A stretch of DNA of 64,000 bases, from assembly GCA_030429705.1 (NCBI GenBank), contig JAUIES010000001.1, positions 1,178,001 to 1,242,000 of the forward strand, in the 5' to 3' direction. Source of the DNA: Phycisphaerae bacterium (GTDB taxonomy: Bacteria; Planctomycetota; Phycisphaerae; Phycisphaerales; UBA1924). Position 1 is the first letter of the stretch, and each line of letters opens with the position of its first letter. Below the pieces are notes generated by a model. The model was not told where the DNA came from and did not search any database. It saw only the letters and a program-made list of their open reading frames with translations. Shown in pieces: positions 31,150-60,228 of this stretch. The translations under genes and the position numbers were made by a program.

Positions 31150-32217
31150 CTAACTCGCTTTCGCCAGCCCGATCAAGTCTTTGAAGTCGATCAAAGCATC
31201 GGCAGCGATCTCGTTGCGAGCGGTCTTCCCGATCACCATCGGCAGCTGCCAGGGCTCAAGTCCGGTGCCAGGGCGCTTGAAGGTCAGGTGCTCCAGATTG
31301 AGTTCCTCACCAACTTCGATCGTCCGCCGGGCCACGATGGACTGTCGTGACACCTGCCGCACATCGCGTTCGCAGGGCAACACCATTTTGGCACCGATGG
31401 GGTTGATGCGCCCGGTCTTGTTTTTGGCGGATCGGCACAGTTCGACGTACTTTGCAAACTGATCCCCATTGAGTGACGCAGCATGGTCTGGTCCCGGTCG
31501 CGTTCGATCATCTGTGATGTGTCGTTCGAGGATGTGGGCGCCTGTCAACACCGCCGAAGCGCCAGTCTCGACAGAATCGGTGTGGTCACTGTAGCCGATG
31601 ACGAGTCCGGTTTGATTGTGGAGGGCCGCGATCCCCCCCAGTGCGGCTTCTGGCGCTGGGTAGGCACTGACGCATTGCAAGAGCGCCGTCCGATCGTGGG
31701 CGTGATGTATCCACTTGAGAGCCCGAAAAACTTCGCCCATTGTGCTCGCGCCGGTGCTGACGATCAGGGGCCTGCCGTCGTTGCTGATCGCCTCAAGCAA
31801 CGGCTGATGAACAAGGTCCGGGCTCGCGGTCTTGAATGCATCCCACGCAAGCGAACAGGCCTCTTGCACGAGGTCGAGGCTGAACACCGTGACGATGGCG
31901 TGCAACCCGCGGTCGTGCGCGTGATCAACGACCGCTGCGAGTGCTTTGGTGTTCAGCGCGAGCCGGCGCAGCATCTCAACGGCATCGGTCTCCCCCGCAT
32001 GCGACTGATAGGTTGCCAGTTGAGCAGCGGGTGTCATCAGAAGATCGGCTTGAAAGAACTGAAGTTTGATCGCGTCAGCGCCAACACGGGCAGCAAGGTC
32101 GGTCAGCGCGATCGCCCGATTGACATCGCCGTCGTGGTTGACACCGATTTCCGCGATGATGTACGGCTCACATCCGTCACCAATGCGCCGTTCGGCTATT
32201 TGTATCGTGGTCGTCAT
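31150..32217 (-). CDS. neuB: N-acetylneuraminate synthase family (NeuB-like), nonulosonic acid synthase
   Basis: Condenses phosphoenolpyruvate with ManNAc or a related six-carbon sugar to give a nine-carbon nonulosonic acid. 355 residues. The TIM barrel carries IIAEIGVNHDGDVNRAIALTDLAARVGADAIKLQFF, STGASTMGEV, LLQCVSAYPAP and VIGYSDHTDSVETGASAVLTGAHILERHITDD. A C-terminal SAF/antifreeze-like domain (about 295-350: SIVARRTIEVGEELNLEHLTFKRPGTG) closes the active site. It is 17 bases downstream of neuA, with its ribosome-binding site overlapping that gene's stop. Sialic, legionaminic or pseudaminic acid cannot be separated by eye; the NeuC-type gene at 59074 argues against pseudaminic. Confidence 0.92.
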   Translation of the reverse strand: MTTTIQIAERRIGDGCEPYIIAEIGVNHDGDVNRAIALTDLAARVGADAIKLQFFQADLLMTPAAQLATYQSHAGETDAVEMLRRLALNTKALAAVVDHAHDRGLHAIVTVFSLDLVQEACSLAWDAFKTASPDLVHQPLLEAISNDGRPLIVSTGASTMGEVFRALKWIHHAHDRTALLQCVSAYPAPEAALGGIAALHNQTGLVIGYSDHTDSVETGASAVLTGAHILERHITDDRTRPGPDHAASLNGDQFAKYVELCRSAKNKTGRINPIGAKMVLPCERDVRQVSRQSIVARRTIEVGEELNLEHLTFKRPGTGLEPWQLPMVIGKTARNEIAADALIDFKDLIGLAKAS

Positions 32218-32234
32218 CCGATCAATTCCATTTC

Positions 32235-32969
32235 CTAGGCAGCCTGTTGAGCGAGTTCGCGTCGTACCGCATTGGCAACAACCAGATCAATCCGCGTGTC
32301 AATATCGACCGTGGATCCGACTGGGTCGACAATGCCCAGGCGCTCGCGCCCGAGAAAAGCATGCGGGCCGGGTTCGACGCCAAGTTCGAGTTCGAGCGCA
32401 GCGCGCCGAACCACGATCACCCCCCCGGTCGGTATGTGAGCCGGCGGCAGGTCCTGCCTTCGGTAAATGCCACCATTGAGTACGGGTCCATCCCAAGGCT
32501 GTACCTGCCCGGTCGATGTATCCACCCGCGTGGTCCACATGGGGTGGTGTTTGCCGACCGGTTCGTAACTTTGCACAGAGTCGCAGCCTGATTGTTCACG
32601 CAACGCGATCGCCCGATCGATTAACCCGACGGGCCGCACAGGCACATTGCCATAGAGCACAACGACAGTTGCGGCTTCGTGACCAATGAGTGCCGCGCGC
32701 ACAGCATTATCAACCGGCGTTGTATCGGCAGCGAGATCTGCAGGGCGGACATGGCAAAACGCACCCATGCGAGACGCGATATCCAGGACATCCGCATCGT
32801 CACTCGAGACGAGCACGCTGCCCACAGCCGACGCGTTCAGCGCCTCTTCGATGGTCCACGCCACGCAGGGTCGCCCTGCGACCAAGGCGGTGTTTTTGCC
32901 GGGCAAGCCTTTGCTTCCTTTGCGTGCGAGAACAACCGCGATCGTCGATGACGTATGCTGCTGTTCCAT
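32235..32969 (-). CDS. neuA: CMP-nonulosonic acid (acylneuraminate) cytidylyltransferase
   Basis: Activates the nonulosonic acid with CTP to give the CMP-sugar donor. 244 residues from ATG 32969, which overlaps the stop of the MAF fusion gene (TGATG) and follows AAGGCGG. The nucleotide-binding signature AVVLARKGSKGLPGKN is near residue 8-23, followed by PCVAWTIEEAL, SSDDADVLDIA and the metal-binding VVVLYGNVPVR, in place of the usual QPTSPLR. The upstream frame to 33038 is inside the fusion gene. It is in operon with neuB. Confidence 0.9.
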   Translation of the reverse strand: MEQQHTSSTIAVVLARKGSKGLPGKNTALVAGRPCVAWTIEEALNASAVGSVLVSSDDADVLDIASRMGAFCHVRPADLAADTTPVDNAVRAALIGHEAATVVVLYGNVPVRPVGLIDRAIALREQSGCDSVQSYEPVGKHHPMWTTRVDTSTGQVQPWDGPVLNGGIYRRQDLPPAHIPTGGVIVVRRAALELELGVEPGPHAFLGRERLGIVDPVGSTVDIDTRIDLVVANAVRRELAQQAA

Positions 32970-35900
32970 CAGGCCGCCTTTGAGATAGCGTGCGACTGAC
33001 TGGTTGGCACGCCACGCGCCTCCAGCACGCGTATCCACAGTTCACACAACGAAAGACCACGGGCATTGAGCGCGTCACACCCAACGACCGAGCCGTCTGC
33101 TCGAATCGTGAGCACAGTTTGGTCGTGTCGTCGGGCTGCTGACGCTGGCAAAGGTAGAGGCGTGATTCGCGCGCCCGGCATTGTTTGCGTGTCGGGTTCA
33201 ATCAATGCGCACCCGCATGCCCGAAGCCAGCCGTCATAGAAGGGCTCGATCTGCTCATATGAGGCATCGCACCGCGTGATGCGCGGCACAATCCAGGGTG
33301 TCGGCAGACCTCCGGCGGTGCCCTGTTCGTTACGCTCGCGCATCAGTTGCTCAAGCCGCCCCTGCACCATCTCATAGGCATCAACCCCTGTGCGTTGTTC
33401 ATAGAGCACCGGCTCGACCGCGTGCGTATCGACACTCACCACCTCACACCCGATCGACCCCAGCGCGTGCCAATCATCGCCTCGCAAATCCGTGCGCACA
33501 TGGGTCGTGACCTGCCGAAGATGACACGCGTTGATCAGTCGGCTCAATGCCGGCTTGTCTTCAACGCTTTGACCGCAAAGCGTGATCGCCGACCCCGGGT
33601 CGAGTGAAGCGATGATTCCGAGCGCGATCTCCGCATTGTCGTCCGTGAGTTCGAACTCCACGAGTGATGGCAACATCCGTGCCGGCGGCAAGTCCGCGAG
33701 AGATGCTGCGATGGTATCAGCATCCAGGTTGCCCGCGCAAGACTGCAGCACCCGGGCGCAGGTTTCAGCGGTCGAAGGCGTATCCGGGATACACCGCCGC
33801 ATGAGGCTGCGCACCTCACGCGACACGGGCACACACATGGGTTGTGCGATGGGGTCGGCCTGCGGGGCAAATGGAACGTATCCAAGCAGCGCACCAATCG
33901 TGGCAAATGGACCCGCGGTCGAAGCACCAGTGGCAAGTGATTCCATCGCGGTCTGGTCAACAAGCATCGCGCCAAGCCCTGGGGGGGCTTGTGAAAACAC
34001 CAGGCGCATCGCCTCTGGATATTCGGCGTGCCGACACACGATCGAGTCGACCATGGCAGGATCAACCAAACACCAATCGGCACCAACGAGAACAGCAGCA
34101 TCGATTCCGCGCTCAGTCATGGCTGAAAGGCAGGACATCGGATCAACAACCTCGTCGTAACAGGTCAGTGACGCAATGCCGCCGCGCCACGCTGCGGGGT
34201 TCATCCTTCGAGCAGGCCCGATTGCATCGAGGCGGGACCGCATTCGTTCAACATCCAGGTCGCCGATCGAGACTCGTTCTGCAAACTCTCCGAGCGCCAC
34301 GCGCAATCGCTCGGGGTCATCAGTCAGACACACAACTTCTCGAAGCCTGTGCGCACTGAGCAGCCTGCTGATCGTGCGTTTGAGGATCGATGATCCACCC
34401 TCGAATGACGATTCGATATCACGATTGGTTCCGAGGCCGCCGCGTTCAAAATCGACATGCACGATCGCTGCAACCCGGCGGCGACGCTTGCGTGAACTCG
34501 ACAGGCCGACCTGCTCATATTCATCTCTCGTGCGCTTGCGCCCGCCGTTGAGTGCGTCCGAAGTTGACTCCAACAGCCCGACCAGTGTCTCGGCCGAACT
34601 GGCGATCGCTTCGACATTGGCAATGTCGCGCTCGATGCGCTGCCGTTGGCGACCTTGTTCGTCGTCCGCTCCCTCAAGATCAATCGCCCGGTCTGCTCGC
34701 ACCCGGTTCAGTGTTCCTGCCTGATTGAGGAATTGGGTCAACCGAAACGCTGCACCGATTGTCGTGACCTCGTCTCGAATCGCATGCACGCGTTTGACAA
34801 GGTCGTTCGCGCGAGCCGGATCATTGGTCGCTCGGCGAAGTTTTTTCAACAGCCGAACGGTGTCCTTGCTGAGTTGGAAGACGCGCCGGGCATCGCTCCG
34901 CAACTGTAAGACAGCTGACGAGAGTGCGGCGCGTTGCTCTTCTGTCAGGCTCGTGCGGCGGCTGCCTGGAACGGTGACCGGGATAGGTGACCCATAGGCT
35001 TCGACCGCTTCAAACAGCGACATGGCAACTGTGTGTTGTTTGGCAACACCCCCCTCGGTTGCATCGACGATGCGGAGCCCACGCTCAGTGTCAGCCAGAA
35101 AGTCTGACTCAAACTGTGCGAGATAGGTCGACATCTGTTCGTCCGTAAAAATGGTCCTCCCGAACACATCTGTCTTACGACGAAGAAGTGATTTCTCGCG
35201 CGCTATGCGCTCCCACTCCATCATCTCCAGCGTGTTGAATGGTCCCAGTTCACTTGCCCACACATCGTGAATCGCAGCCCCCGCGGCGTAGTACTGGCCG
35301 TCCGTAAATCCAAGGTCCTGGCCGCACAACAAAACCGGATCGCAACCAAGATGTCGGGCGAGGTAATAGCACTGATGCGCTACCGTCGCGCCCGGTGCAA
35401 GTTCGCCCTTGGGTTCTGCGCGCAGTCCACCAGCGTCGATGATCAGATCGAGCAGGTCATTGCCAAGGGTTCGGATCGCACCCGGATAGGCATCAAGAAT
35501 GGCCGGGTTCGCTTTGGGATCAACGACCAGTGTGACGTCTTCGACATCTGCTTCGGTCAGTCCTTCATAGAACCGCGTCGAAATTTCGTGGTGGTCGAGT
35601 GCGCACACGAAGTGTGGCCGAATACCGCGCGCTAGCAAAGGCTTGAGAACTGTTTGCACCGCGATGATGACAACCTTGTCGCGCATGCCAGGCTGAGCCA
35701 GAATGTCGATGTTGCGTTCAAGACTCGGACCGGCAGCGACCACGACCGCCGGCACACCCAGGCACGCCGAACCGAGATCGCCGATGCCATCGCAACTGCC
35801 GTAGTAGTCCACATTCATCAGGAGATTGCGAAGTGTGACCTCGCTTTGAACCAGCGTGGTCACGATGGCGGTGCGAATCGCTTTGAGGACATCTGCAAAA

Positions 35901-36469
35901 CGCTGCCCGAACTGATCGCCCATGTTGCCGAGTCGTGATCTGCTGGGTGGGTGATCAATAAGCCGAACGCCAAGTGCGATGACACCCTCAAGTCCGCTCA
36001 AGACGCGCGATATTGAGGCACCATCGTCCGGATCGGTCACCAAGGCGAAATTGGTCTGAAGCATCCACGCCGAGCAATCGATTTTCTCAAAAACCGCTCG
36101 AAGCAGGGTCAGGTCGGGTTCGAAGCACAACAGAATGCCGGTTTTGGTCAATCGATCAGATAGGACTTTCAGATGATGCCCGAGCCCAAACCCCACCACC
36201 GCGACACCAGCAACTTCGGTGATGTCAACGGTGTCGGCGAGACGGGTCGCTTCTGTAACGGGTTTGCGTCTGCTCGCGAGCAGGCGACCATCTTGAAAAG
36301 ATGCGGAGAGTGCATCTTCGTCGGTTTCGTGAAAATCGAGGTCAGCCCGTGCGGTCGCAGCCCGAATCTGCCGAGCAGCGACCGGGCTGGTTCGAGCCAG
36401 TGCATCGAGATTTCGCTCCAGAATCTCATCAACCGGGGCAGCGAACGGGTCAGTCTCAAAGAAGTCCAT
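32969..36469 (-). CDS. MAF/DUF115 glycosyltransferase fused to nucleotidyltransferase-like and SPASM-like domains
   Basis: A 1166-residue multidomain protein. Residues about 1-500 form the motility-associated glycosyltransferase (MAF/DUF115) module: VVGFGLGHHLKVLSDRL (92-108), VPAVVVAAGPSLERNIDIL (239-257), HFVCALDHHEIS and LLCGQDLGFTDGQYYAAGAA; such proteins move nonulosonic acids onto flagellin. Residues 505-650 are helical, as in MAF C-termini. Residues about 664-870 resemble SpsF-like cytidylyltransferases (AAIVHVDFERGGLGTNRDI, GGSSILKRTISRLLSAHRL). Residues about 930-1150 follow a SPASM/radical-SAM pattern (CEVVSVDTHAVEPVLYEQRTGVDAYE, TIRADGSVVGCDALNARGLSLCELWIRVL) but lack the CxxxCxxC cluster motif. 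ATG 36469 follows AGGAG; the stop overlaps neuA. Confidence 0.85.
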   Translation of the reverse strand: MDFFETDPFAAPVDEILERNLDALARTSPVAARQIRAATARADLDFHETDEDALSASFQDGRLLASRRKPVTEATRLADTVDITEVAGVAVVGFGLGHHLKVLSDRLTKTGILLCFEPDLTLLRAVFEKIDCSAWMLQTNFALVTDPDDGASISRVLSGLEGVIALGVRLIDHPPSRSRLGNMGDQFGQRFADVLKAIRTAIVTTLVQSEVTLRNLLMNVDYYGSCDGIGDLGSACLGVPAVVVAAGPSLERNIDILAQPGMRDKVVIIAVQTVLKPLLARGIRPHFVCALDHHEISTRFYEGLTEADVEDVTLVVDPKANPAILDAYPGAIRTLGNDLLDLIIDAGGLRAEPKGELAPGATVAHQCYYLARHLGCDPVLLCGQDLGFTDGQYYAAGAAIHDVWASELGPFNTLEMMEWERIAREKSLLRRKTDVFGRTIFTDEQMSTYLAQFESDFLADTERGLRIVDATEGGVAKQHTVAMSLFEAVEAYGSPIPVTVPGSRRTSLTEEQRAALSSAVLQLRSDARRVFQLSKDTVRLLKKLRRATNDPARANDLVKRVHAIRDEVTTIGAAFRLTQFLNQAGTLNRVRADRAIDLEGADDEQGRQRQRIERDIANVEAIASSAETLVGLLESTSDALNGGRKRTRDEYEQVGLSSSRKRRRRVAAIVHVDFERGGLGTNRDIESSFEGGSSILKRTISRLLSAHRLREVVCLTDDPERLRVALGEFAERVSIGDLDVERMRSRLDAIGPARRMNPAAWRGGIASLTCYDEVVDPMSCLSAMTERGIDAAVLVGADWCLVDPAMVDSIVCRHAEYPEAMRLVFSQAPPGLGAMLVDQTAMESLATGASTAGPFATIGALLGYVPFAPQADPIAQPMCVPVSREVRSLMRRCIPDTPSTAETCARVLQSCAGNLDADTIAASLADLPPARMLPSLVEFELTDDNAEIALGIIASLDPGSAITLCGQSVEDKPALSRLINACHLRQVTTHVRTDLRGDDWHALGSIGCEVVSVDTHAVEPVLYEQRTGVDAYEMVQGRLEQLMRERNEQGTAGGLPTPWIVPRITRCDASYEQIEPFYDGWLRACGCALIEPDTQTMPGARITPLPLPASAARRHDQTVLTIRADGSVVGCDALNARGLSLCELWIRVLEARGVPTSQSHAISKAA

Positions 36470-36541
36470 GCTTGCTCCTGGCACGCCGTTGGCGCACTTG
36501 TCCGGTGCAACCTTCGGACACCGACCATCGAACGCTGTAGC

Positions 36542-43358: not shown

Positions 43359-45326
43359 ATGTCGACTGAAATGAGAGATCGAGTGCTATCGTGCCCGAAC
43401 CTGCCATCGCTGCCAAGCGTGGCGGTGCGGATCCTCGAATTGACCAAAGACAACGATGTCTCACTCAAGGACATCGCCAAAGTCGTTGAGCAGGATCAGG
43501 CACTCACCGGCAAGATTCTCAAGACTGTGAACTCAAGTTTCTATGGCCTCGCACAGCCCTGTGGAACAGTTGACCGGGCGCTCAACTATCTCGGCCTGTC
43601 GACGGTGAAGTCGCTCGTTCTCGGTTTCAGTCTGGTCGAATCGACCAAAGGTGTCGGTGACGACTCAGAGTTCAGTATGCAACAGTACTGGAGTCGAACC
43701 ATCTACACAGCAACCGCAGCCCGATTGCTCGCACTCAAGTTCAGGCGAACCGACCCAGACGAAGCGTTTACCGCTGCCTTGTTTCAGGACATTGGTGTCC
43801 TCGCAGCCGTGACAGCAATCCAAGACGAATATGTCGAGGTTGTCGGAGACTCGCTGTTCAAGCCGAACCTGCCTGTGGTGGAACAAGAGAACTTCGCGTT
43901 TACGCATACCGACATCGGCTCGGCACTTGCCGAGAAGTGGCGATTGCCACAAGCATACATCGATGTCATCAGGTACCACCACGACTCAGAGAAAGCGCCC
44001 GCGAGCGCTCAACAGGTCGTACGCACAGCGGTGTTGGGCTCTGGCGCAGCCGATGTTCTCACTGGTGACGGCAGCAAGAAAAGTGCACTGCGCAAATTCG
44101 AATCGCGCGTCAGTGAGTGGTATGGACTGAGCCTGAAAGAAACCGAAGCCCAGTTCGAAGAAATCGCGAAAGCAGCCAAAGAAATCGGTAAACTTTTCGA
44201 ACAGCCGATCGAGCCAGCGGCGAGTGTCGGAAGCCTGCTCTCGGCCGCCCAGGAACGCTCGATCGAGATGCAGATTCAATCAGAACAGGAATCCATGCGT
44301 GACGGGTTGACCGGCGTGTCCAACCGCAAGCATTTCGATGCAAGGGCAGCCGCCATGTTCGCAGAAGCACGAGAAAATGGCACATCAATCGCTGTCCTGT
44401 TCTGTGATGGTGATCGATTCAAGTCTGTCAACGACACGCTCGGCCATCAAGCGGGCGATGCGGTCCTCGTCGAAATGGCAAAGCGCATCAGTTCGACGGT
44501 GGGGGACGCGGGTGGCGTGTTCCGCTACGGCGGCGAAGAGTTCGCGATCATTCTCCCAGACCACGACACCACACAAGCAGCGCAGGTCGCCGAACAAATT
44601 CGTGCTGCAATGGAAGCCGAGCCTGTCAATTTGTCAAAAGTCGATTGTCAGGTCGATGAACATAACCAGACCTTGAGTTTCGGTGTGGCTGCTGGTGTGC
44701 CTGATTCGTGCGATGCCGCCAGTTCGATCACAGCGCTTGTCAAAGCCGCGGACGATGCGGTCTATCGTGCCAAGGAAAATGGTCGAAACCGCGTCGAATG
44801 TGCGGATCTGAATCCGGCGGCTCAACCGGCACCAGCACAGGCACCGGCCGCCGAAGCCGTACCTGCCGCAGCACCAGTGACAGCTGCGAAACCTGCAGCG
44901 AACCCGGCACCGAAACCTTCGACGGATGGAACCACGAACATCCTCGTGGTCGAAGACGATCCGTTGTCGTCAACGCTTTGGCGCACCATGCTGCTCAAAC
45001 GCGCGGGTGTTGAGGTCAGCCAGGCGACCGGCAGGCGCGGTGTTGAAAAACTGATCAAGTCAGGGTATGTCCCGAATGTCGTGATTACGGACTACAACCT
45101 CGGCTCTGGTACTGGTGTTGATGTCATTCTGGCCATCCGCAAGTCGTTCGGTGACGCCGTCACCATTCTCTTGATCTCAGCCCTTCTCGATGAAGACCGT
45201 GTGGAGTCATCGCTTGCTGCGGGTGCCGATCGCTGCGTCAGCAAAGTCGAACTCTGCAAGAAGTTTAAATTCTGGGTCGATCAGATTGTCTCGGGCAATA
45301 TCGATCGGCGCGCCAAGGTAGGCTGA
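43359..45326 (+). CDS. HDOD-GGDEF-receiver signalling protein
   Basis: 655 residues with an uncommon domain order. An HDOD domain lies at about 1-230 (LPSLPSVAVRILELTKDNDVSLKDIAKVVEQDQALTGKIL, then DIGSALAEKWRLPQAYIDVIRYHH), a GGDEF diguanylate cyclase at about 315-480 (RDGLTGVSNRKHFD, LFCDGDRFKSVNDTLGHQAGD, active-site RYGGEEF), an Ala/Pro-rich linker at about 490-525, and a receiver at about 527-640 (ILVVEDDP, phosphoacceptor VVITDYNLGSGTG, LISALLDED). It should make cyclic di-GMP, perhaps gated by phosphorylation of the C-terminal receiver. GGAG precedes ATG 43359; 245 bases separate it from the NtrC-type gene with no clear element. Confidence 0.92.
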   Translation: MSTEMRDRVLSCPNLPSLPSVAVRILELTKDNDVSLKDIAKVVEQDQALTGKILKTVNSSFYGLAQPCGTVDRALNYLGLSTVKSLVLGFSLVESTKGVGDDSEFSMQQYWSRTIYTATAARLLALKFRRTDPDEAFTAALFQDIGVLAAVTAIQDEYVEVVGDSLFKPNLPVVEQENFAFTHTDIGSALAEKWRLPQAYIDVIRYHHDSEKAPASAQQVVRTAVLGSGAADVLTGDGSKKSALRKFESRVSEWYGLSLKETEAQFEEIAKAAKEIGKLFEQPIEPAASVGSLLSAAQERSIEMQIQSEQESMRDGLTGVSNRKHFDARAAAMFAEARENGTSIAVLFCDGDRFKSVNDTLGHQAGDAVLVEMAKRISSTVGDAGGVFRYGGEEFAIILPDHDTTQAAQVAEQIRAAMEAEPVNLSKVDCQVDEHNQTLSFGVAAGVPDSCDAASSITALVKAADDAVYRAKENGRNRVECADLNPAAQPAPAQAPAAEAVPAAAPVTAAKPAANPAPKPSTDGTTNILVVEDDPLSSTLWRTMLLKRAGVEVSQATGRRGVEKLIKSGYVPNVVITDYNLGSGTGVDVILAIRKSFGDAVTILLISALLDEDRVESSLAAGADRCVSKVELCKKFKFWVDQIVSGNIDRRAKVG

Positions 45327-48813: not shown

Positions 48814-48919
48814 TCCATCCGGGTTCCTCTCCTCTTGCCATCTCGTGTCAACTGCTGCACCTGAACGGCCGATCAAGTGATCGAAGCCCGCCGAGAGGCC
48901 CTTGCGGAGGAGACTCGAC

Positions 48920-49975
48920 ATGGATCTTGATCAAATTCTGCGTGCAGCATATGAAGCTGACGCATCCGATATTCATCTGGTTGCCGGTGAGCCTCCGGTC
49001 ATGCGCGTCCATCAGGTGATGACGCCCATGGAGTTTCCTGTTATCACACCCGCCGATGCCGACCAGATGTTCCGGCAGATGGCATCCGATGAGGCAGCAG
49101 CAATCTTCGACAAGCAGATGGATGCCGACTTTTCGTATGAGATCGCGGGACTGAGTCGATATCGTGTGAACGCGCACATGCAGCGAGCCAAGATCGGCAT
49201 GGCATTGCGTACGGTCAAGACCAAAGTGCCACCGCTCGCCAATCTCGGGCTACCCGAGGTGATCGCGCGATTAACCTACCTGCCGCGCGGGCTGGTGCTG
49301 GTGACGGGTGATACCGGTTCCGGCAAGACGACGACACTCGCAGCCATGATCCAGGCGATGAATGAGCGATACGCCAAACACATCATCACACTCGAAGACC
49401 CGATCGAATACACCTTCGAGAGCGGCCAGTGTCTGATCGAACAGCGCGAACTCGGGCAGGACATGCCGCACTTCGCGTCAGGGCTTAAGCACGCGCTGCG
49501 TCAGGATCCGGACATCATCCTGGTTGGTGAAATGCGTGACCTCGAAACATCTGCACTCGCGATCAGTGCTGCAGAAACCGGCCACTTGGTGCTCTCAACA
49601 TTGCACACCGTGAATGCATCACAGACGGTGGAGCGCATCATCGACATGTACCCGGCTGGTCAGCAGAACCAGATTCGTTCGATGCTCTCGACGACGCTGC
49701 AGGCGGTGGTCAGCCAGACGCTGTTCACACGATCAGATCGCCCGGGCATGGTGCCTGCGGTCGAGACATTGCTCGCGACACCGGCTGTTCGCAACCTCAT
49801 CCGCGAAGACCGGACCTTTGAAATTCCGAATGTGATTGAGACCAACAGGGCGATCGGCATGTGCAGCCTCGACACCTCGATCGCGGAGTTGTACTTCAAC
49901 GGGCTCATCAGTAAGGAAGACGCAATCGCTCAGGCGGTCCACCCGGACAAACTCGAGCGTCAGTTGGTGGCCTAG
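48920..49975 (+). CDS. pilT: Type IV pilus retraction ATPase PilT
   Basis: A 351-residue hexameric secretion ATPase that powers pilus retraction. ATG 48920 has GGAGGAG upstream. Motifs in order: DASDIHLVAGEPPVMRVH, Walker A TGDTGSGKTTTLAAMI, Asp box IITLEDPIEYTF, Walker B RQDPDIILVGEMRDLET and the His box AAETGHLVLSTLHTVNASQTVERIIDMYP. The AIGMCSLD-type segment and following helices match PilT rather than PilB. It heads an apparent five-gene operon through 55540. Confidence 0.95.
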   Translation: MDLDQILRAAYEADASDIHLVAGEPPVMRVHQVMTPMEFPVITPADADQMFRQMASDEAAAIFDKQMDADFSYEIAGLSRYRVNAHMQRAKIGMALRTVKTKVPPLANLGLPEVIARLTYLPRGLVLVTGDTGSGKTTTLAAMIQAMNERYAKHIITLEDPIEYTFESGQCLIEQRELGQDMPHFASGLKHALRQDPDIILVGEMRDLETSALAISAAETGHLVLSTLHTVNASQTVERIIDMYPAGQQNQIRSMLSTTLQAVVSQTLFTRSDRPGMVPAVETLLATPAVRNLIREDRTFEIPNVIETNRAIGMCSLDTSIAELYFNGLISKEDAIAQAVHPDKLERQLVA

Positions 49976-50012
49976 AGCAGCGGAAGAATTGGCACACGGG
50001 AGCAGGTGAACG

Positions 50013-51239
50013 ATGACGACCTATCAGTATCAGGTCAAAGATCGAAGCGGGCAAGTGAGACAAGGCTCACTCAGCGCGCAGTCTGCATCTGCTGCTGCTG
50101 CTGCACTGCGCAGTCAAGGCCTGCATGTGCTTTCAGTGGGTGCTTCGCGCAGCGATGGCTCGGGCAGTTCATTCATGGACACTCTTCGTCGCCTGAATGA
50201 ACCCAAGCCCACAACCAAGAATGTCCTCGATTTCACCACGCAGATTGCGGTTATGATTCGAGCAGGCATCAACCTGCGGGCGGCTCTCGATGGCATCGCC
50301 GACCAGACCACCCACCGTGCCTTCCGCAAAATCATCCTCGAACTCAAGAGCGATGTGGAATCAGGCAAGCAGTTCTCAGACGCACTCGCCAAGCACGAGA
50401 AGTTGTTCGGCCCATTGTATGTGAACATGGTTCGTGCGTCCGAGATCTCTGGTTCATTCGCAGACATGCTCGACCGAATCGCCGGGTACATTGCACAACA
50501 GATGGAAACGCGCCGCATGGTGATCGGCGCTTCGATCTATCCGGCAATTATTGCGGTGCTTGCTATTGGCGTCACTGTGTTCCTGCTCAGTTTCGTGTTG
50601 CCGAAGTTCTATACAGTCTTCGAGGGCAAGGAAGATGTGTTGCCCTGGGCGACAACCTTCCTGATGGGTCTCAGTAAGTTGATGACCGCGCAATGGCCGC
50701 TCCTCGTCGGTGCTGTCGTTGTTGTTATCGGCTTGGTCTGGGCAGCGCTCAAAACTGAAGTCGGTTCATTCTGGTTCGACCGGTTCAAACTGAACGCACC
50801 GGTTCTTCGCAATCTGTTCCGGTCGCTTTACATCAGTCGCTCGTTGCAAACGATGGGGCAGTTGCTCAATGCGGGCGTACCCATGCTGGACACGCTTTCG
50901 ATCACCGGCGACATTTCTGGCAATCAACTGTACCGGATCATGTGGAAGAAGGTCTTCACGAGTGTCAAGCAAGGTAAGAAGGTCGCCACACCACTGCAGG
51001 GCGACAAGCTGCTGCCCAAAGCGGTGGTCCAGATGATCAGCGCGGGTGAAGAGTCCGGTAAACTTGGCGAGGTGCTTGATCAGATCAGTACCTACTACGC
51101 CGGTCAACTCAAGGACAACATCAAGGTGGTTACCGGAATGATCGAGCCCATCATGATCATTGTGATGGGCACAATCGTCGGTTTCATTGCGATGGCGATC
51201 ATCCTTCCGATCTTCAAGATGAGCCAGTTGGTCAAATAG
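50013..51239 (+). CDS. pilC: Type IV pilus / type II secretion inner-membrane platform protein PilC (GspF)
   Basis: 408 residues. It has the two tandem T2SSF domains of the platform protein: the first around LDFTTQIAVMIRAGINLRAALDGIADQT, KSDVESGKQFSDALAKHEKLFGPLYVNMVRASEISGSF, and the second around FNALYISRSLQT-like LFRSLYISRSLQTMGQLLNAGVPMLDTLSITGDI and LLPKAVVQMISAGEESGKLGEVL. Three membrane segments follow the family layout (about 175-200, 230-250 and 380-400). The ribosome-binding site GGAGCAGGTG precedes ATG 50013, 37 bases after pilT. Confidence 0.95.
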   Translation: MTTYQYQVKDRSGQVRQGSLSAQSASAAAAALRSQGLHVLSVGASRSDGSGSSFMDTLRRLNEPKPTTKNVLDFTTQIAVMIRAGINLRAALDGIADQTTHRAFRKIILELKSDVESGKQFSDALAKHEKLFGPLYVNMVRASEISGSFADMLDRIAGYIAQQMETRRMVIGASIYPAIIAVLAIGVTVFLLSFVLPKFYTVFEGKEDVLPWATTFLMGLSKLMTAQWPLLVGAVVVVIGLVWAALKTEVGSFWFDRFKLNAPVLRNLFRSLYISRSLQTMGQLLNAGVPMLDTLSITGDISGNQLYRIMWKKVFTSVKQGKKVATPLQGDKLLPKAVVQMISAGEESGKLGEVLDQISTYYAGQLKDNIKVVTGMIEPIMIIVMGTIVGFIAMAIILPIFKMSQLVK

Positions 51240-51291
51240 CCGATGCACGCATGGCGAGCGTACAGACACGCTCGTCAGGAGGCGAAAGGCA

Positions 51292-51999
51292 ATGCGGATG
51301 ACGAACCGGTCTCGTCGCAGGGGCCGACATGCAGCCCGAGGTGGATTTACCCTCATCGAGGCTGCGCTTGCCACGATCATTATCGGGGTGGGTGTCGTCG
51401 CTATGGTCGAAGCGCAGCAGTCCTTTATCACATCCAACCTGTGGTCGAGTCATGCTGCGTCAGGGACTTTCCTTGCAAATGAAGTGCGCGAGTTCACGCG
51501 ACACCTGCCAAAGCACGACCCGGTCACCGGGCTCTATATTGACAGCTCGGGATTCGGGGGGGATGTGTTGGTTGGCTGGGGGCCCGAAGATGGCGAGGTA
51601 TTGCCGACCGATTTCGACGACCTCGACGATTTTGACGGCGTGAGTTTCTCGTTCCTCGGGACTGTTGGCATCAACGATGGCGACCTGCCAGGACCGATCA
51701 ACGCATTCGGCGATGTCATTCCTGACATCCTGCTCGATGGTTCTGTCGCCGTCCCCGACCCGGAGACCGGCGATCTGGATGCCATGGTCGGCTGGATCCA
51801 GACTGTGTTTGTGCAGAAAGTCAGCCCGTTCGACACGGGTACGGCTGTCGCTGACAACGCGACCGAGCCGGCTGCCGGGTCATTCGCGGGCAGAGAAGTT
51901 GATGATTATCCGTTGCGTGTCACTGTTGAGGTGACCTATGTCCCGCCGTTGAGCGTGCAGGGCGAGGTGATCTCGCGCGTCACTTGGATCGTCCCTTAA
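51292..51999 (+). CDS. Minor prepilin, PilV/GspI-like
   Basis: 235 residues from ATG 51292 behind AGGAGG. The class III signal is GGFTLIEAALATIIIGVGVVAMVEAQQ, with a long basic leader (RRRGRHAARG) and glycine before the methylated Phe. The soluble part is acidic (DFDDLDDFDGVSF) and ends in a beta strand, VEVTYVPPLSVQGEVISRVTWIVP. Its place after pilC and before PilX/PilW-like genes makes it a minor pilin rather than the major subunit. The ribosome-binding site of the next gene lies just after its stop. Confidence 0.85.
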   Translation: MRMTNRSRRRGRHAARGGFTLIEAALATIIIGVGVVAMVEAQQSFITSNLWSSHAASGTFLANEVREFTRHLPKHDPVTGLYIDSSGFGGDVLVGWGPEDGEVLPTDFDDLDDFDGVSFSFLGTVGINDGDLPGPINAFGDVIPDILLDGSVAVPDPETGDLDAMVGWIQTVFVQKVSPFDTGTAVADNATEPAAGSFAGREVDDYPLRVTVEVTYVPPLSVQGEVISRVTWIVP

Positions 52000-52025
52000 C
52001 CGCAGGTGGGAAAAGGAGCAAAGTG

Positions 52026-54953
52026 ATGGCTCAGCGTTTTACAATTGCACGGATCCGGCGCCGATGCCGCTCGCGTCGAGGCGTGGCCACCGTGCTGGCG
52101 ATGATGTTCCTTATCGTGTTCGGTTCACTCGTGGCCGCGATGGCAATCGCGAGTACCGGCAACATCCGAACGGCGGCGATGCATCTGCATGTCATGCGCG
52201 CCATGTCGGCAGCCGACACCGGTATGGAAGTCGCCGAACAACGATTCATGGAAGCGACCAATCGGTTTGTCGTCGCCAAGAGTGATATCGACGAAGACTA
52301 TCTGACCGCACTCTGGACCGGCAATGAAGTCGCGCTCGGTGACTACAGCATTAACCCACCAGCCAGCGGCTTTAACGAAGATAGCGACCCATCAGGGCTT
52401 GCTGAGGCACTGGTCAATCGGCACAACGCCGATCTGAACACAATCACAGGTGGGGGATTCATCAGCGAGGCCTCTGTTGGATCGGCTCCATCTGGAACAG
52501 ATGAAACGCTGTACAAACTTGACAACTGGGTGTACACACCTGCGGTCGCTGTCGAAGACGGCACCAACGAAGGACTGCCCCCGGCGTTCCAAGTCCGGTA
52601 TGTTCCGCTTGCCGATGGAGAGCATATCCGCATCATCGTGGATGGTTACGCCTTTGACTACGGCCGCAATAACGAACCGATCCGCCGCACGATCAGTCGT
52701 GATTTTCAGATCGTCAAGAGAGTCAATCACGCGATTATCAGCCCAAGCCGAATCATGATCGGGAAAAATGTCACGGTCATCGGCGACCTCGGCTCAACCT
52801 ATGACGATATCGATTTTGAAAACGGCGACCCGCTTGTGCTGCGCTCAGATTTTGCGGGTCTCGATCCAATTCTCGATGATAAACTCGACGACTTTTTCGC
52901 CGGGCTTGATGCCTTCGATGTGGATGGCGACAACCGGCTTCGTACTGGTCACCCCATCGAATCAGCAGGTATCCCCGGGTCAGACACAGACTATGACAGC
53001 GACGGAGAAGACGACAACGCGTTTGCTGATATCACCGGCGATGGCTATGTGGATGAGTTTGATATCTTCATTCGCCACTACGATGCAAACAACGACGGCC
53101 GGGTCACACTGTCCGCAGCGCTGATCGCGGGTACCCCCGCCGGGGCTGCTGGCGCAACGCCCGAGTTTGTTCACGACGACGGCACACCGATCGACGATGA
53201 CATGGCGCTCATGTTTGATGCGGGCACGCCCGACCGCAATCGAAACGGCGTGTACGGCTGGGACGACCTGAACGGCAATCACAAGTACGATCCGGCGTCA
53301 GAGCCACTGCTCGACTACGACGCCTATTCATCAACCTACCCCGACCTCGAACTCGGATACCGTGACGGCTGGGTCGACAAGATGGACCGATACGCCAAAG
53401 TGCACGGCACCGTGGCATTCAAGGTGTCTGCGTCCGCATGGGAAGCAGCCCAGGGCGACATCGGCGAGCGGCTGCGAGGCCCCATTCGTCCGACCGATGG
53501 CGAGAGTCCGCAGCGATACGAAGCGCCGTCGAGCATCCTGCCAGACATCTCAGCCGATAGTTTCAGTGATACTGAGACCGCGCTGATCGCGGCTGCGGAC
53601 GGCGAAGCGTTCTGGACACAGGTCGCTGCACAACTCGATGCAAACTTGAGTGATCTCGCAAACTGGACAGAAGCCTCAAACCCCCCCGGCACGGGCGAAC
53701 CTTACTTTATAGCCGTGTGGGACGATGCTGACTATGACGGCATTCCTGACAATGCAGAGGATGCATACTTCGAGAAGTCACCGTTTAACAGTCCTGCATA
53801 TGCAGACTGGTACTACCGGCCTGTTTTCCGCAACTTCGTGTTTCGTAATGTGGTCATTCCCGTAGGGTTGAACGCGCTGTTTGAAGACTGCCAGTTCATC
53901 GGCGTGACCAAGATCGAAAACTACGCCGACAATCGACATCCGTACTGGTCGACCTATGGCAAGATGATCCTGGATGAATCTGCTGGCTATCCCGTCCCCA
54001 TTTATGAGCGGCGCGCTTGGGGTGACGACAGCGATGAAGACCCGTCCGAGATCATCGGCGATCCACACCTGCCCGATTCGGCTCGTCCGCCCCAGCAGAT
54101 CGCCGAACTGGCAATCGCGCCGATTGACAAAGCGGATATCGTCGTGAGCGAGATCGTTCTTTACAGTGCGAGCGCGTACGACGCGACGCCCGACCCGCTG
54201 GTCATCGCCGGCAAGCGCGTCGTCGATACCAAAAAGCACTCCAACAACTTGCGGTTCCACGACTGCCTGGTGGTGGGGTCGTTGGTCAGTCCGCCGACGC
54301 TCAGTTACACACAGGTGCGCAACAAGCTGCAGTTCACTGGCGCGACTCGGTTCGCCCAAGAACATCCGGATGAACCCGATTCGGCGCTGCTCAATCCTGA
54401 CCCCGAAGACATGGACGAGATCGCCAAGAGCTCCATGATGTTGCCGAACCAGTCCGTTGATATTGGCGCGTTCAACTCGCCGCCAGAACAGGATGTGTCG
54501 CTCAAGGGCGCCATCGTGGCCGGGGTGCTTGATGTGCGCGGCAACGCCACCATCAGGGGTTCCTTGCTCTTGACTTTTAACCCGGTGCACGGCGAAGGGC
54601 CGATGGCCGACGCAGCAGGCAACCCGATCGGGAACCCCGCCGGGTTCAACGCATCGCTCGGGTACTTCGGTCCAGATGATGGCGACTTCGAGTCACTCGA
54701 CCCCGAGAGTCTCCCGGTTGTCGATGGCGTGCGCATTGTCGGGTGGGATCTCGATGGAGACGGCCTCGCAGACCTCAGCCCGGACGCCGAACCAACGGCT
54801 GATCAAATTGCAGCCGGAGCCGTCACCGTGCCATGGAACGGCTACGGGCATGTCGAGTTGAGTTACGACCCCGAGATGACGCTGCCTGATGGTCTGATGC
54901 TGCCTCTACAGATCGCGCCGCAATCCGGCTCATATCAGGAGGGCCATCAATGA
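52026..54953 (+). CDS. Large PilX-like pilus-associated protein with calcium-loop motifs
   Basis: 975 residues. ATG 52026 follows AAAGGAG; the frame starts at 51984 inside the previous gene. The N-terminus resembles PilX (RRGVATVLAMMFLIVFGSLVAAMAIASTGNIRTAAM, then MRAMSAADTGMEVAEQRF), a single membrane helix without the classical GFTLxE site. Residues about 297-440 contain several Asp-rich EF-hand/dockerin-like loops (DVDGDNRLRTG, DITGDGYVDEFDIF, DANNDGRVTL, DRNRNGVYGWDDLNGNHKYD). The rest is beta-rich with no domain I recognise. At about five times the size of ordinary PilX it may be a pilus-tip or surface protein. It overlaps the PilW-like gene by four bases. Confidence 0.82.
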   Translation: MAQRFTIARIRRRCRSRRGVATVLAMMFLIVFGSLVAAMAIASTGNIRTAAMHLHVMRAMSAADTGMEVAEQRFMEATNRFVVAKSDIDEDYLTALWTGNEVALGDYSINPPASGFNEDSDPSGLAEALVNRHNADLNTITGGGFISEASVGSAPSGTDETLYKLDNWVYTPAVAVEDGTNEGLPPAFQVRYVPLADGEHIRIIVDGYAFDYGRNNEPIRRTISRDFQIVKRVNHAIISPSRIMIGKNVTVIGDLGSTYDDIDFENGDPLVLRSDFAGLDPILDDKLDDFFAGLDAFDVDGDNRLRTGHPIESAGIPGSDTDYDSDGEDDNAFADITGDGYVDEFDIFIRHYDANNDGRVTLSAALIAGTPAGAAGATPEFVHDDGTPIDDDMALMFDAGTPDRNRNGVYGWDDLNGNHKYDPASEPLLDYDAYSSTYPDLELGYRDGWVDKMDRYAKVHGTVAFKVSASAWEAAQGDIGERLRGPIRPTDGESPQRYEAPSSILPDISADSFSDTETALIAAADGEAFWTQVAAQLDANLSDLANWTEASNPPGTGEPYFIAVWDDADYDGIPDNAEDAYFEKSPFNSPAYADWYYRPVFRNFVFRNVVIPVGLNALFEDCQFIGVTKIENYADNRHPYWSTYGKMILDESAGYPVPIYERRAWGDDSDEDPSEIIGDPHLPDSARPPQQIAELAIAPIDKADIVVSEIVLYSASAYDATPDPLVIAGKRVVDTKKHSNNLRFHDCLVVGSLVSPPTLSYTQVRNKLQFTGATRFAQEHPDEPDSALLNPDPEDMDEIAKSSMMLPNQSVDIGAFNSPPEQDVSLKGAIVAGVLDVRGNATIRGSLLLTFNPVHGEGPMADAAGNPIGNPAGFNASLGYFGPDDGDFESLDPESLPVVDGVRIVGWDLDGDGLADLSPDAEPTADQIAAGAVTVPWNGYGHVELSYDPEMTLPDGLMLPLQIAPQSGSYQEGHQ

Positions 54954-55540
54954 CCAGAACTCGATCCGAGCGCGGGTTCAGCATCATCGAGATGTTGATT
55001 GCGCTGACCATCACCGCCACGCTGCTGACCGCGACCCTCGCTGCTCTCGACGCGAGTTTCAAGAGTTACTCCGTGACGAGTGAGTCAGCATCAACCCATG
55101 TGGTCTCACGCATCGTCATGCAGAGGACCATGGCGCTCATTCGTAACGGCGAAGACTTCGGGCCTTACCCCATCAACCCCATCACCACTCCGATTATCGA
55201 AAGCGATTGGATCGAGTTTGTTTCATTCTCAGACCCGACAACAGGTGTTCAGCGCATTACCACACTCGCGCGCCAGGGCGCAGATGGTGACTTCACCCTG
55301 GTCTACACCCTGTCAACATTCGAGGGGGGCGTCTTGCAGAGCGAAGACACGCGCCCGCTGATCACCGGGCTGACGCAACTGAACTTCATCATGGAGTATG
55401 AAGTCGGACCAACGCTTCAGCGGGTCACCGTTGACATGGTGGTTCAACCGAACGATCTGGCGGACGCAGCCATCACCGCCGGTCTCGAAGCACCGACGAT
55501 TCGCATGGTTTCGTCCGCAAGCCCGCGCCGTCTCGACTAA
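54950..55540 (+). CDS. Minor prepilin, PilW/GspJ-like
   Basis: 196 residues. The class III signal is RGFSIIEMLIALTITATLLTATLAAL, with glycine at the cleavage site and Glu at +5, followed by SFKSYSVTSESASTHVVSRIVMQRTMALIR, a helix typical of PilW/GspJ proteins. The rest is beta-rich. It is the last gene of the pil operon, overlapping the previous gene (ATGA), and is followed by a terminator. Confidence 0.86.
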   Translation: MTRTRSERGFSIIEMLIALTITATLLTATLAALDASFKSYSVTSESASTHVVSRIVMQRTMALIRNGEDFGPYPINPITTPIIESDWIEFVSFSDPTTGVQRITTLARQGADGDFTLVYTLSTFEGGVLQSEDTRPLITGLTQLNFIMEYEVGPTLQRVTVDMVVQPNDLADAAITAGLEAPTIRMVSSASPRRLD

Positions 55541-59073: not shown

Positions 59074-60228
59074 ATGACTGATGCACATCCTCAGAACACC
59101 AATCCACGCCGCGTCGCCATTGTCACCGGCTCGCGCGCCGATTTTGGTCTCCTCTCCCCCGTCATCTACGCCGCCCAGGCACGCCCAGACCTCGAGCCAC
59201 TTGTCATCGCAGCCGGGTCTCATCTCATCTCGCCCGCGTTGACTTTTCGCGATGTCAAAGCCCTGTTCCCCGTCGCCGATTCGATCCCCATGCAGACCGC
59301 AGGCCGAACCGGCCGATTCGCCGATGTCGAAGCCTTGGGCCGAGGCATCGCCCGGTTTGGTCGCAGTTTCGAAGCCCATCAACCTGACTGGGTCGTTGTG
59401 TTGGGTGATCGGATTGAAGCCTTTGCTGCAGCCTCGGCTGCCAGTATCGCCGGGATCGCGGTCGCCCACATCCACGGCGGCGACCGGGCTGAAGGCGTCG
59501 CCGACGAAGCCATGCGTCACGCCATCACCAAACTCGCCCACCTCCACCTCGCAGCCACAGAAACCAGCGCGAGCCGCATCATCCGCATGGGTGAAAAGCC
59601 CGAGCATGTCTTTAATACAGGTTCACCAGCCATCGACGGCTTGGACTGCCTCGAACCCGCAAACGACGAAGATTGGGCGGCTGCTGGTTCGCCGGATGTG
59701 TTGTTTCTGATGCACCCGACCGACCGACCCCATGCCGATACTGCTGCTGCTCGGGCAGCCCTCGATGCGATCAGCGATCGGCGGGTGTTGGCGTTGGCTC
59801 CGAATTTCGACCCCGGCCGCGAGGCAATTCTCGAAGTGCTTGACGCAGCAGCACCTGGCATCAAGCGGCTTGACCACTTGCCGAGAAACGCGTTCTGTTC
59901 CATCCTCAAACGCCTCACAGCGAATGGCGGCTTCATGATTGGGAACTCGTCCGGTGCGTTGATCGAAGCTGCAGCAATCGGGCTGCCCGCGATCAACATC
60001 GGGCCTCGTCAGACCGGGCGCGAAAAACCAGCGACGGTTTTCGATGTGTCCGATGAGTCAGCTCAATCCATCACACTCGCCATCGAACAGGTTCGAGAGG
60101 TTCATGCGACTGATCAGGTCGAACATCATCCCTATGGCGACGGCCACGCGGGCGAACGAATCGCCGAAGCGCTCGCCACCGTCGACCCACACGACCCCCA
60201 ACTCCTCCGCAAGCAGAATACTTTTTGA
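59074..60228 (+). CDS. neuC: UDP-N-acetylglucosamine 2-epimerase, hydrolysing (NeuC-like)
   Basis: Converts UDP-GlcNAc (or a derivative) to ManNAc and UDP, the first committed step to sialic acid; the LegG branch does the same for legionaminic acid. 384 residues with a GT-B fold: VAIVTGSRADFGLLSPVIYAAQ at the N-terminus, VVLGDRIEAFAAASAASIAGIAVAHIHGGDRAEG in the middle, and GFMIGNSSGALIEAAAIGLPAINIGPRQTGRE near the end, which binds the UDP. It is 27 kb from neuB/neuA, with no sugar gene beside it. ATG 59074 lacks a clear ribosome-binding site. Confidence 0.93.
   Translation: MTDAHPQNTNPRRVAIVTGSRADFGLLSPVIYAAQARPDLEPLVIAAGSHLISPALTFRDVKALFPVADSIPMQTAGRTGRFADVEALGRGIARFGRSFEAHQPDWVVVLGDRIEAFAAASAASIAGIAVAHIHGGDRAEGVADEAMRHAITKLAHLHLAATETSASRIIRMGEKPEHVFNTGSPAIDGLDCLEPANDEDWAAAGSPDVLFLMHPTDRPHADTAAARAALDAISDRRVLALAPNFDPGREAILEVLDAAAPGIKRLDHLPRNAFCSILKRLTANGGFMIGNSSGALIEAAAIGLPAINIGPRQTGREKPATVFDVSDESAQSITLAIEQVREVHATDQVEHHPYGDGHAGERIAEALATVDPHDPQLLRKQNTF

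Follow-up and report, generated by a model that had tools for sequence, protein, structure and literature searches.

What is the function of a second half, built from two enzyme folds, on a flagellin glycosyltransferase of the Maf type? The question is raised by a 1166-residue protein encoded in the window (the whole stretch of 64,000 nucleotides of Phycisphaerae DNA analysed here), in an operon with genes for the nonulosonate enzymes NeuA and NeuB. A sequence-only reading of the window had proposed that this one chain may gather sugar activation, a sensing or scaffold module and transfer onto flagellin. Here we consider the proposal in the light of predicted structures, residue conservation, gene neighbourhoods and the occurrence of the fusion in related genomes.

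Organization of the fusion locus

The three genes of the operon lie on the minus strand (Table 1). The fusion frame is uninterrupted, with AGGAG 5 bases upstream of its ATG at 36469 (a GTG at 36484 is also present in the frame), and in TGATG the fusion stop overlaps the neuA start. The arrangement proposed from the sequence, three modules in one chain whose stop overlaps neuA with neuB following, is thus confirmed by the frame, the TGATG overlap, the Pfam matches and the predicted folds. An assembly artefact was considered and is unlikely, as the single fusion frame recurs across many genomes; this genome holds one match to the fusion protein. The 3' neighbour of the operon is a converging serine hydroxymethyltransferase gene and the 5' neighbour is an opposite-strand reading frame with no Pfam family above cut-off. 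Scanning the region for promoters and terminators yielded counts near the level of shuffled sequence (2 versus 1.2 and 6 versus 4.6, respectively).

Window NeuA matches PF02348 (CTP_transf_3) with 71.5 bits (cut-off 22.6) and the structure 1eyr with an E-value of 2.4e-18, and its nucleotidyltransferase signature is intact (ARKGSKGLPGKN in the translation). Window NeuB exceeds the cut-offs of PF03102 (196.6 bits, cut-off 22.1) and of SAF and matches SpsE (1vli) with an E-value of 5.7e-43; because it passes these two family cut-offs and stays below the TIGR03569 equivalog cut-off (279.8 versus 399.65 bits), we assign it from its sequence to the NeuB-family synthases at the level of the family. 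It is the single NeuB match found in the whole genome. A NeuC-type UDP-GlcNAc 2-epimerase gene about 23 kb from the operon (TIGR03568, 284.6 bits, cut-off 235.9), the single Epimerase_2 match found in the genome, probably provides the upstream step of the nonulosonate route; it favours a route of the sialic or legionaminic type. The genome also holds 9 PF02719 and 11 PF01041 matches, and none of the three best of these proteins (L129, L132 and L133) reaches an equivalog cut-off.

Two other features of the window are listed in Table 1: a protein with HDOD, GGDEF and response-regulator domains, and a type II secretion or type IV pilus-like cluster (T2SSE, T2SSF and an N-methylation motif) that includes a 989-aa protein with no Pfam match at 1e-5.

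Table 1. Coordinates, within the window, of the operon, of the modules of the fusion protein and of other genes discussed.
Feature	Coordinates	Strand	Description
Fusion gene	32969-36469	-	1166 codons + TGA
Maf flagellin glycosyltransferase module	34514-36469	-	residues 1-652
SpsF/NeuA-fold (nucleotidyltransferase-like) module	33665-34480	-	residues 664-935; predicted fold; no nucleotidyltransferase signature
Pseudo-radical-SAM barrel	33170-33664	-	residues 936-1100; predicted fold; no CxxxCxxC
SPASM remnant	32972-33169	-	residues 1101-1166; predicted fold
neuA	32235-32969	-	244 aa; cytidylyltransferase of CMP-nonulosonate (sialic acid) type
neuB	31150-32217	-	355 aa; nonulosonate synthase
neuC-type gene	59074-60228	+	384 aa; UDP-GlcNAc 2-epimerase
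HDOD, GGDEF, response-regulator protein	43359-45326	+	655 aa, one protein
Type II secretion or type IV pilus-like cluster	48902-55540	+	

The Maf module

The N-terminal part of the protein is laid out as an N domain, an MptE-like/DUF115 catalytic domain (about residues 215-470) and a C-terminal helical bundle (about residues 510-640). PF01973 is the sole Pfam family above cut-off in the fusion protein (123.4 bits, cut-off 34.6). Residues 13-653 superpose on Maf of Magnetospirillum (5mu5) with Z 24.2 and an rmsd of 7.5, 530 of 632 residues being aligned (Foldseek E-value for the module 1.1e-17), and the predicted model shows a complete Maf fold in the fusion protein; across 39 fusions, 36 positions of the catalytic domain are invariant. 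The protein thus resembles the known Maf nonulosonate transferases (PF01973) in its whole fold and in the nonulosonate genes that accompany it in the operon, and differs from them in the extra C-terminal half of about 500 residues with its two pseudo-enzyme folds.

Predicted folds and lost motifs of the C-terminal half

In the window protein itself neither Pfam nor NCBIfam detects the second and third modules, and the window half alone matches no family; they were recognised through relatives and predicted folds. AlphaFold2 models of the full chain (pLDDT 91.4, pTM 0.90) and of residues 641-1166 (pLDDT 93.7, pTM 0.92) were obtained, and the former suggests that the modules have a defined mutual packing. 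Residues 663-938 of the full model superpose on the Leptospira SpsF-type cytidylyltransferase 6oew with Z 21.6 (227 residues, rmsd 2.8), and the C-terminal half modelled alone does so with Z 22.1 over the same number of residues and with the same rmsd. For PqqE, Z is 15.5 with residues 929-1166 of the full model (209 residues, rmsd 4.4) and 16.6 with the half alone, and against the radical-SAM enzymes PqqE, SuiB, MoaA and BlsE together the third module scores Z 14-16.6. A profile of 65 such halves, searched against PDB sequences, finds radical SAM enzymes (8wm2, 3.8e-7) and the cytidylyltransferase 6oew (1.9e-5) in separate stretches, and family matches among the 65 comprise PF04055 (Radical_SAM) in 38, PF13186 (SPASM) in 18, NTP_transf_3 in 10, CTP_transf_3 in 2 and IspD in 1. 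The central SpsF-like and C-terminal SPASM-like folds proposed earlier therefore survive comparison with known structures, with one amendment: the third module is not SPASM alone, being predicted as a radical-SAM-type barrel followed by a SPASM remnant.

The motifs of the ancestral chemistry were sought in an alignment of the 65 C-terminal halves, the window half among them, with 41 rows fused and 24 labelled split; the latter include L041 (frame break) and L046 (contig end), which come from genomes of the window's own family and so belong to the fused clade. The nucleotidyltransferase signature (R-x-G-S-x-R-L-P-G-K type) is present in none of the 65 halves, 56 of which have the columns of that loop mostly filled, whereas the same pattern is found in 63 of 65 distinct NeuA rows; with R permitted for the final K it is found in a single half, that of the shrunken L058. 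SpsF-type cytidylyltransferases such as 6oew and Bacillus SpsF, whose fold the window residues 663-938 share, carry RMGSTRLPGK, which is replaced in the aligned window half. Sugar activation by the central module was accordingly rejected and is left to the separate NeuA, and the suggestion that the one chain also activates the sugar is not upheld. The radical-SAM cluster motif CxxxCxxC is likewise absent from all 65 halves, and radical chemistry was rejected for these aligned rows. Unlike the radical SAM/SPASM enzymes with which window residues of about 930-1166 share a fold (PqqE, SuiB, BlsE and MoaA), the fused clade has also lost the SPASM cysteines: all four are present in 0 of 41 fused rows versus 18 of 24 split-labelled rows, and in the window protein C1131 is the sole cysteine among the four cluster columns. 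Judged by its missing motifs, the C-terminal half appears to be a pair of pseudo-enzymes.

A different set of residues is near-invariant in the nucleotidyltransferase-like module among the 65 halves (R754 in 65, W761 in 63, R762 in 64, G763 in 64, D772 in 62, E773 in 63, G831 in 65, D872 in 62, R892 in 63 and D896 in 58), indicating that the module is under constraint even though the signature is lost. The majority fraction is 0.48 in this module, 0.52 in the pseudo-barrel and 0.50 in the Maf C-terminal helices; conservation is weaker in the SPASM remnant (0.33, with 20 percent gaps).

Distribution and history of the fusion

The earlier view of the architecture as something not previously known has to be revised in one respect, in that other organisms share it: the fusion is frequent within the order, and a second one occurs elsewhere in the phylum. 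Titles and the opening parts of abstracts surveyed in the open-licence literature contain no description of this fusion, and one may exist outside that literature. Among 61 genomes, namely the window's own and others of its family and order, 57 have a match to the fusion protein, mostly in a single frame, which makes the fusion more than a chance event. Two families of the order, like more distant planctomycetes, encode the half in a gene of its own of about 500-550 codons that usually follows maf directly; the distant stand-alone loci have a Maf match in 7 of 9 cases, the exceptions being L118 and L120. One stand-alone spiro-SPASM-like gene (L042/L115) is flanked by two divergent Maf genes. 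Plasmids were searched for relatives of the stand-alone type, and 21 records were returned. None reached 80 percent of the query, and the 15 listed, with 41-49 percent coverage, mostly carry radical SAM annotations.

In a Maf tree of 64 rows, built by a quick method without bootstrap, all 41 fused rows form one clade (SH-aLRT 99), which takes one change. The second fusion (L139, genome G237) is a 1174-aa protein from another family with a SPASM match above the Pfam cut-off and, by inspection, the cysteines present; elsewhere in G237 a further Maf gene precedes a separate gene resembling the C-terminal half (L140). A thinned tree of 43 rows requires at least two changes between split and fused, and the fusion arose at least twice, once in the order and once more in the phylum. 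Within the fused clade, L041 and L043, identical in sequence, represent one locus with a frame break in the nucleotidyltransferase-like part, which may stem from faulty assembly or sequencing or else from a recently split gene. The trees place this locus in neither class, but in the cysteine count it bears the split label. By genome, the irregular frames noted in the own family are a break in the nucleotidyltransferase-like part in G031 and a TGA inside the match in G016.

A sample of 199 genomes was taken from the phylum, its counts being lower bounds. At least 33 genomes have a match, and in at least 22 it covers the nucleotidyltransferase-like part together with most of the barrel. Each of these 22 has a Maf match as well, with the half and Maf fused or adjacent in 16 and on different contigs in 6. 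Three genomes match solely over the final third, a pattern expected of ordinary radical SAM proteins. A strong Maf match unaccompanied by the half occurs in five genomes, each less than 90 percent complete, and a weak partial one in three more, so that Maf may be able to act by itself.

Sequence comparison relates the C-terminal half, at scores below the cut-off, to TIGR04321, the spiro-SPASM family, which from its name we take to be tied to spirochaetes. Matches with E-values of 0.01 or better are found in 52 of the 65 halves (best 1.3e-46), and in stand-alone relatives the match extends to as many as about 430 of 510 positions; the window half itself has no TIGR04321 match, and the curated cut-off of 250 bits is reached in none of 99 genomes, the best relative scoring 158.4 bits. 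The model also catches ordinary radical SAM proteins, with sub-cut-off matches in 10 of 14 control genomes; a tally of 86 of 99 genomes was therefore discarded and long matches alone were followed. The NCBIfam listing states no function for TIGR04321, and no paper under the name spiro-SPASM was found in the open-licence literature. The proteins described here differ from that family in matching below its cut-off and in the fusion of the half to Maf.

Association with nonulosonate genes and flagellin

NeuA directly follows the fusion in all 34 fused-clade loci examined, with NeuB after it in 29. In 32 of these (duplicates L041 and L080 omitted, the shrunken L057 and L058 set apart), the NeuA match begins no more than 52 bases from the fusion end in every case and NeuB is found in 29; adding L145 and L146 gives the 34, and the short-flank fused loci L001-L030 were left out. 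L034 ends too soon for NeuB, and L072 and L079 show NeuA without NeuB; in the genus g24 (L072, L145 and L146) the fusion and neuA are kept with no neuB match alongside. In two sister families NeuA lies within 2 kb in 9 of 10 loci and NeuB in 5 of 10, and loci from more distant relatives likewise carry NeuA, NeuB, NeuC and NeuD-type genes. Neither NeuA nor NeuB occurs in the stretch read at L037, L040, L042/L115, L117, L118, L120, L057, L058 and the second fusion L139; the stretches at L038 and L039 are too short to judge. The NeuB model matches 8 of 14 controls, two of them over the cut-off, so that weak NeuB matches carry little meaning.

Variants of these neighbourhoods were also observed. 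NeuA and NeuB profile matches share one open frame at L033, L047, L049, L050, L051, L059 and L060; by sequence, one sister family seems to carry NeuA-NeuB fusion proteins often, with sporadic cases outside it. At L113 (4690-6171, minus strand) the gene for a B12-binding radical SAM protein, which perhaps modifies the sugar, separates neuA from neuB, and genes of the NeuD and NeuC types follow neuB.

Flagellin is present in 56 of the 61 genomes, and 55 of these 56 have a fusion-protein match; the exception, G005, is a draft of 87 percent completeness. None of the five flagellin-less genomes has a full-type protein: three have no match, and two (G042 and G054) have a shrunken form that has lost the N domain of Maf along with most C-terminal helices. 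Four of the five lack a NeuB match better than 1e-5, and G050 has one. This co-occurrence supports flagellin as the acceptor. The sample is small, and because the flagellin-linked losses fall in two families the association does not reflect a single event. At the two shrunken loci (L057, 4407-7298, plus strand; L058, 5038-7533, minus strand) the reduced Maf catalytic domain is still fused to the pseudo-enzyme half, and the two genomes have no flagellin or NeuB match. The C-terminal half can therefore persist without flagellin and has, or had, some role apart from it.

Proposed role of the C-terminal half

We propose, with a probability of about 0.5, that Maf transfers a CMP-nonulosonate to flagellin and that the fused C-terminal half is a recognition and scaffold module. 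NeuC, NeuB and NeuA would make a CMP-activated nonulosonic acid, which the cytoplasmic Maf O-glycosyltransferase would place on flagellin before export. The half, presumably a former accessory protein now fused to the Maf C terminus, would hold flagellin, and possibly NeuA or the CMP-sugar, beside the Maf active site and thereby set which acceptor sites are modified. Against this reading stand the loci with neither NeuA nor NeuB, among them the second fusion L139 and some distant stand-alone genes, the Maf matches that lack the half, and the persistence of the half in two flagellin-less genomes. Transfer to flagellin, the identity of the sugar and the recognition role are what we infer from these data; of the activation, scaffolding and transfer once assigned to the one chain, scaffolding is the likeliest role of the half, and activation finds no support.

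There are precedents for this arrangement. Maf-dependent flagellin glycosylation in Aeromonas comes before export (PMC4065374). Some flagellin transferases depend on a part that binds the acceptor: the N-terminal TPR of Caulobacter FlmG is the acceptor-binding part (PMC7591256), and Maf-1 with a TPR and Maf-2 with the separate GlfM have acceptor-binding parts as well (Unay et al. 2024, cited in PMC13317340). A partner gene that stands beside maf or is joined to it according to lineage, and that has lost its own chemistry, fits the same plan. FlmG, Maf-1 and Maf-2/GlfM are like the proposed arrangement in being flagellin transferases with a fused or separate acceptor-binding part; they differ in using a TPR domain or GlfM and not a pseudo-enzyme pair, and GlfM is likened here by arrangement and not by sequence.

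The main rival to the scaffold role is ligand handling by a rebuilt pocket of the nucleotidyltransferase-like module. The half would then still carry out chemistry or handle a small molecule, for example by passing CMP-nonulosonate from NeuA to Maf or by modifying the sugar; the different near-invariant set, whose conserved Asp, Arg and Trp could reflect retained ligand binding or chemistry, speaks for it, as does the order Maf, half, NeuA kept in the fused clade. We nevertheless consider it unlikely, given the loss of both the signature and CxxxCxxC in all 65 halves and the adjoining NeuA with its signature intact. Extending such chemistry to a genuinely multifunctional enzyme, both activating and transferring the sugar, would draw on the SpsF fold of the central module and on Bacillus subtilis SpsF, described as a putative cytidylyltransferase in the pathway to CMP-legionaminic acid (PMC7439481); the same missing signature and the separate NeuA make this extremely improbable.

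Another surface or exported protein might take the place of flagellin as acceptor, as the shrunken relatives in two flagellin-less genomes and the location of this genome's best flagellin matches on another contig (C8) would allow. The restriction of the full-type protein to flagellin-bearing genomes, the lack of a NeuB match better than 1e-5 in all flagellin-less genomes except G050, and the action on flagellin of the Maf proteins in the abstracts surveyed render this improbable. Scarcely more credit, and if anything slightly less, is due to the idea that the half is a decaying passenger with no present function in the fused clade. The lost SPASM cysteines, the poorly conserved remnant and the interrupted frames of G016 and G031 would suit decay; most fused-clade genomes keep one frame, and the nucleotidyltransferase-like module and pseudo-barrel show roughly the conservation of the Maf C-terminal helices, and the former retains near-invariant residues. 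The recognition and scaffold role thus remains our preferred reading.

Implications

More tentatively, spiro-SPASM-like proteins, combining dead nucleotide-sugar and radical-SAM folds, may be general partners of Maf that choose the flagellin sites to receive nonulosonic acid; planctomycetes would have fused the two at least twice, and the family named after spirochaetes might do the same job there. The fusion offers an example of two pseudo-enzyme folds recruited to help a glycosyltransferase, and one in which the loss of the SPASM cluster ligands can be traced by comparing living relatives. Conserved as it is, it is of more interest as a Rosetta-stone link between a spiro-SPASM-related family and flagellin glycosylation than as a sugar-activating enzyme.
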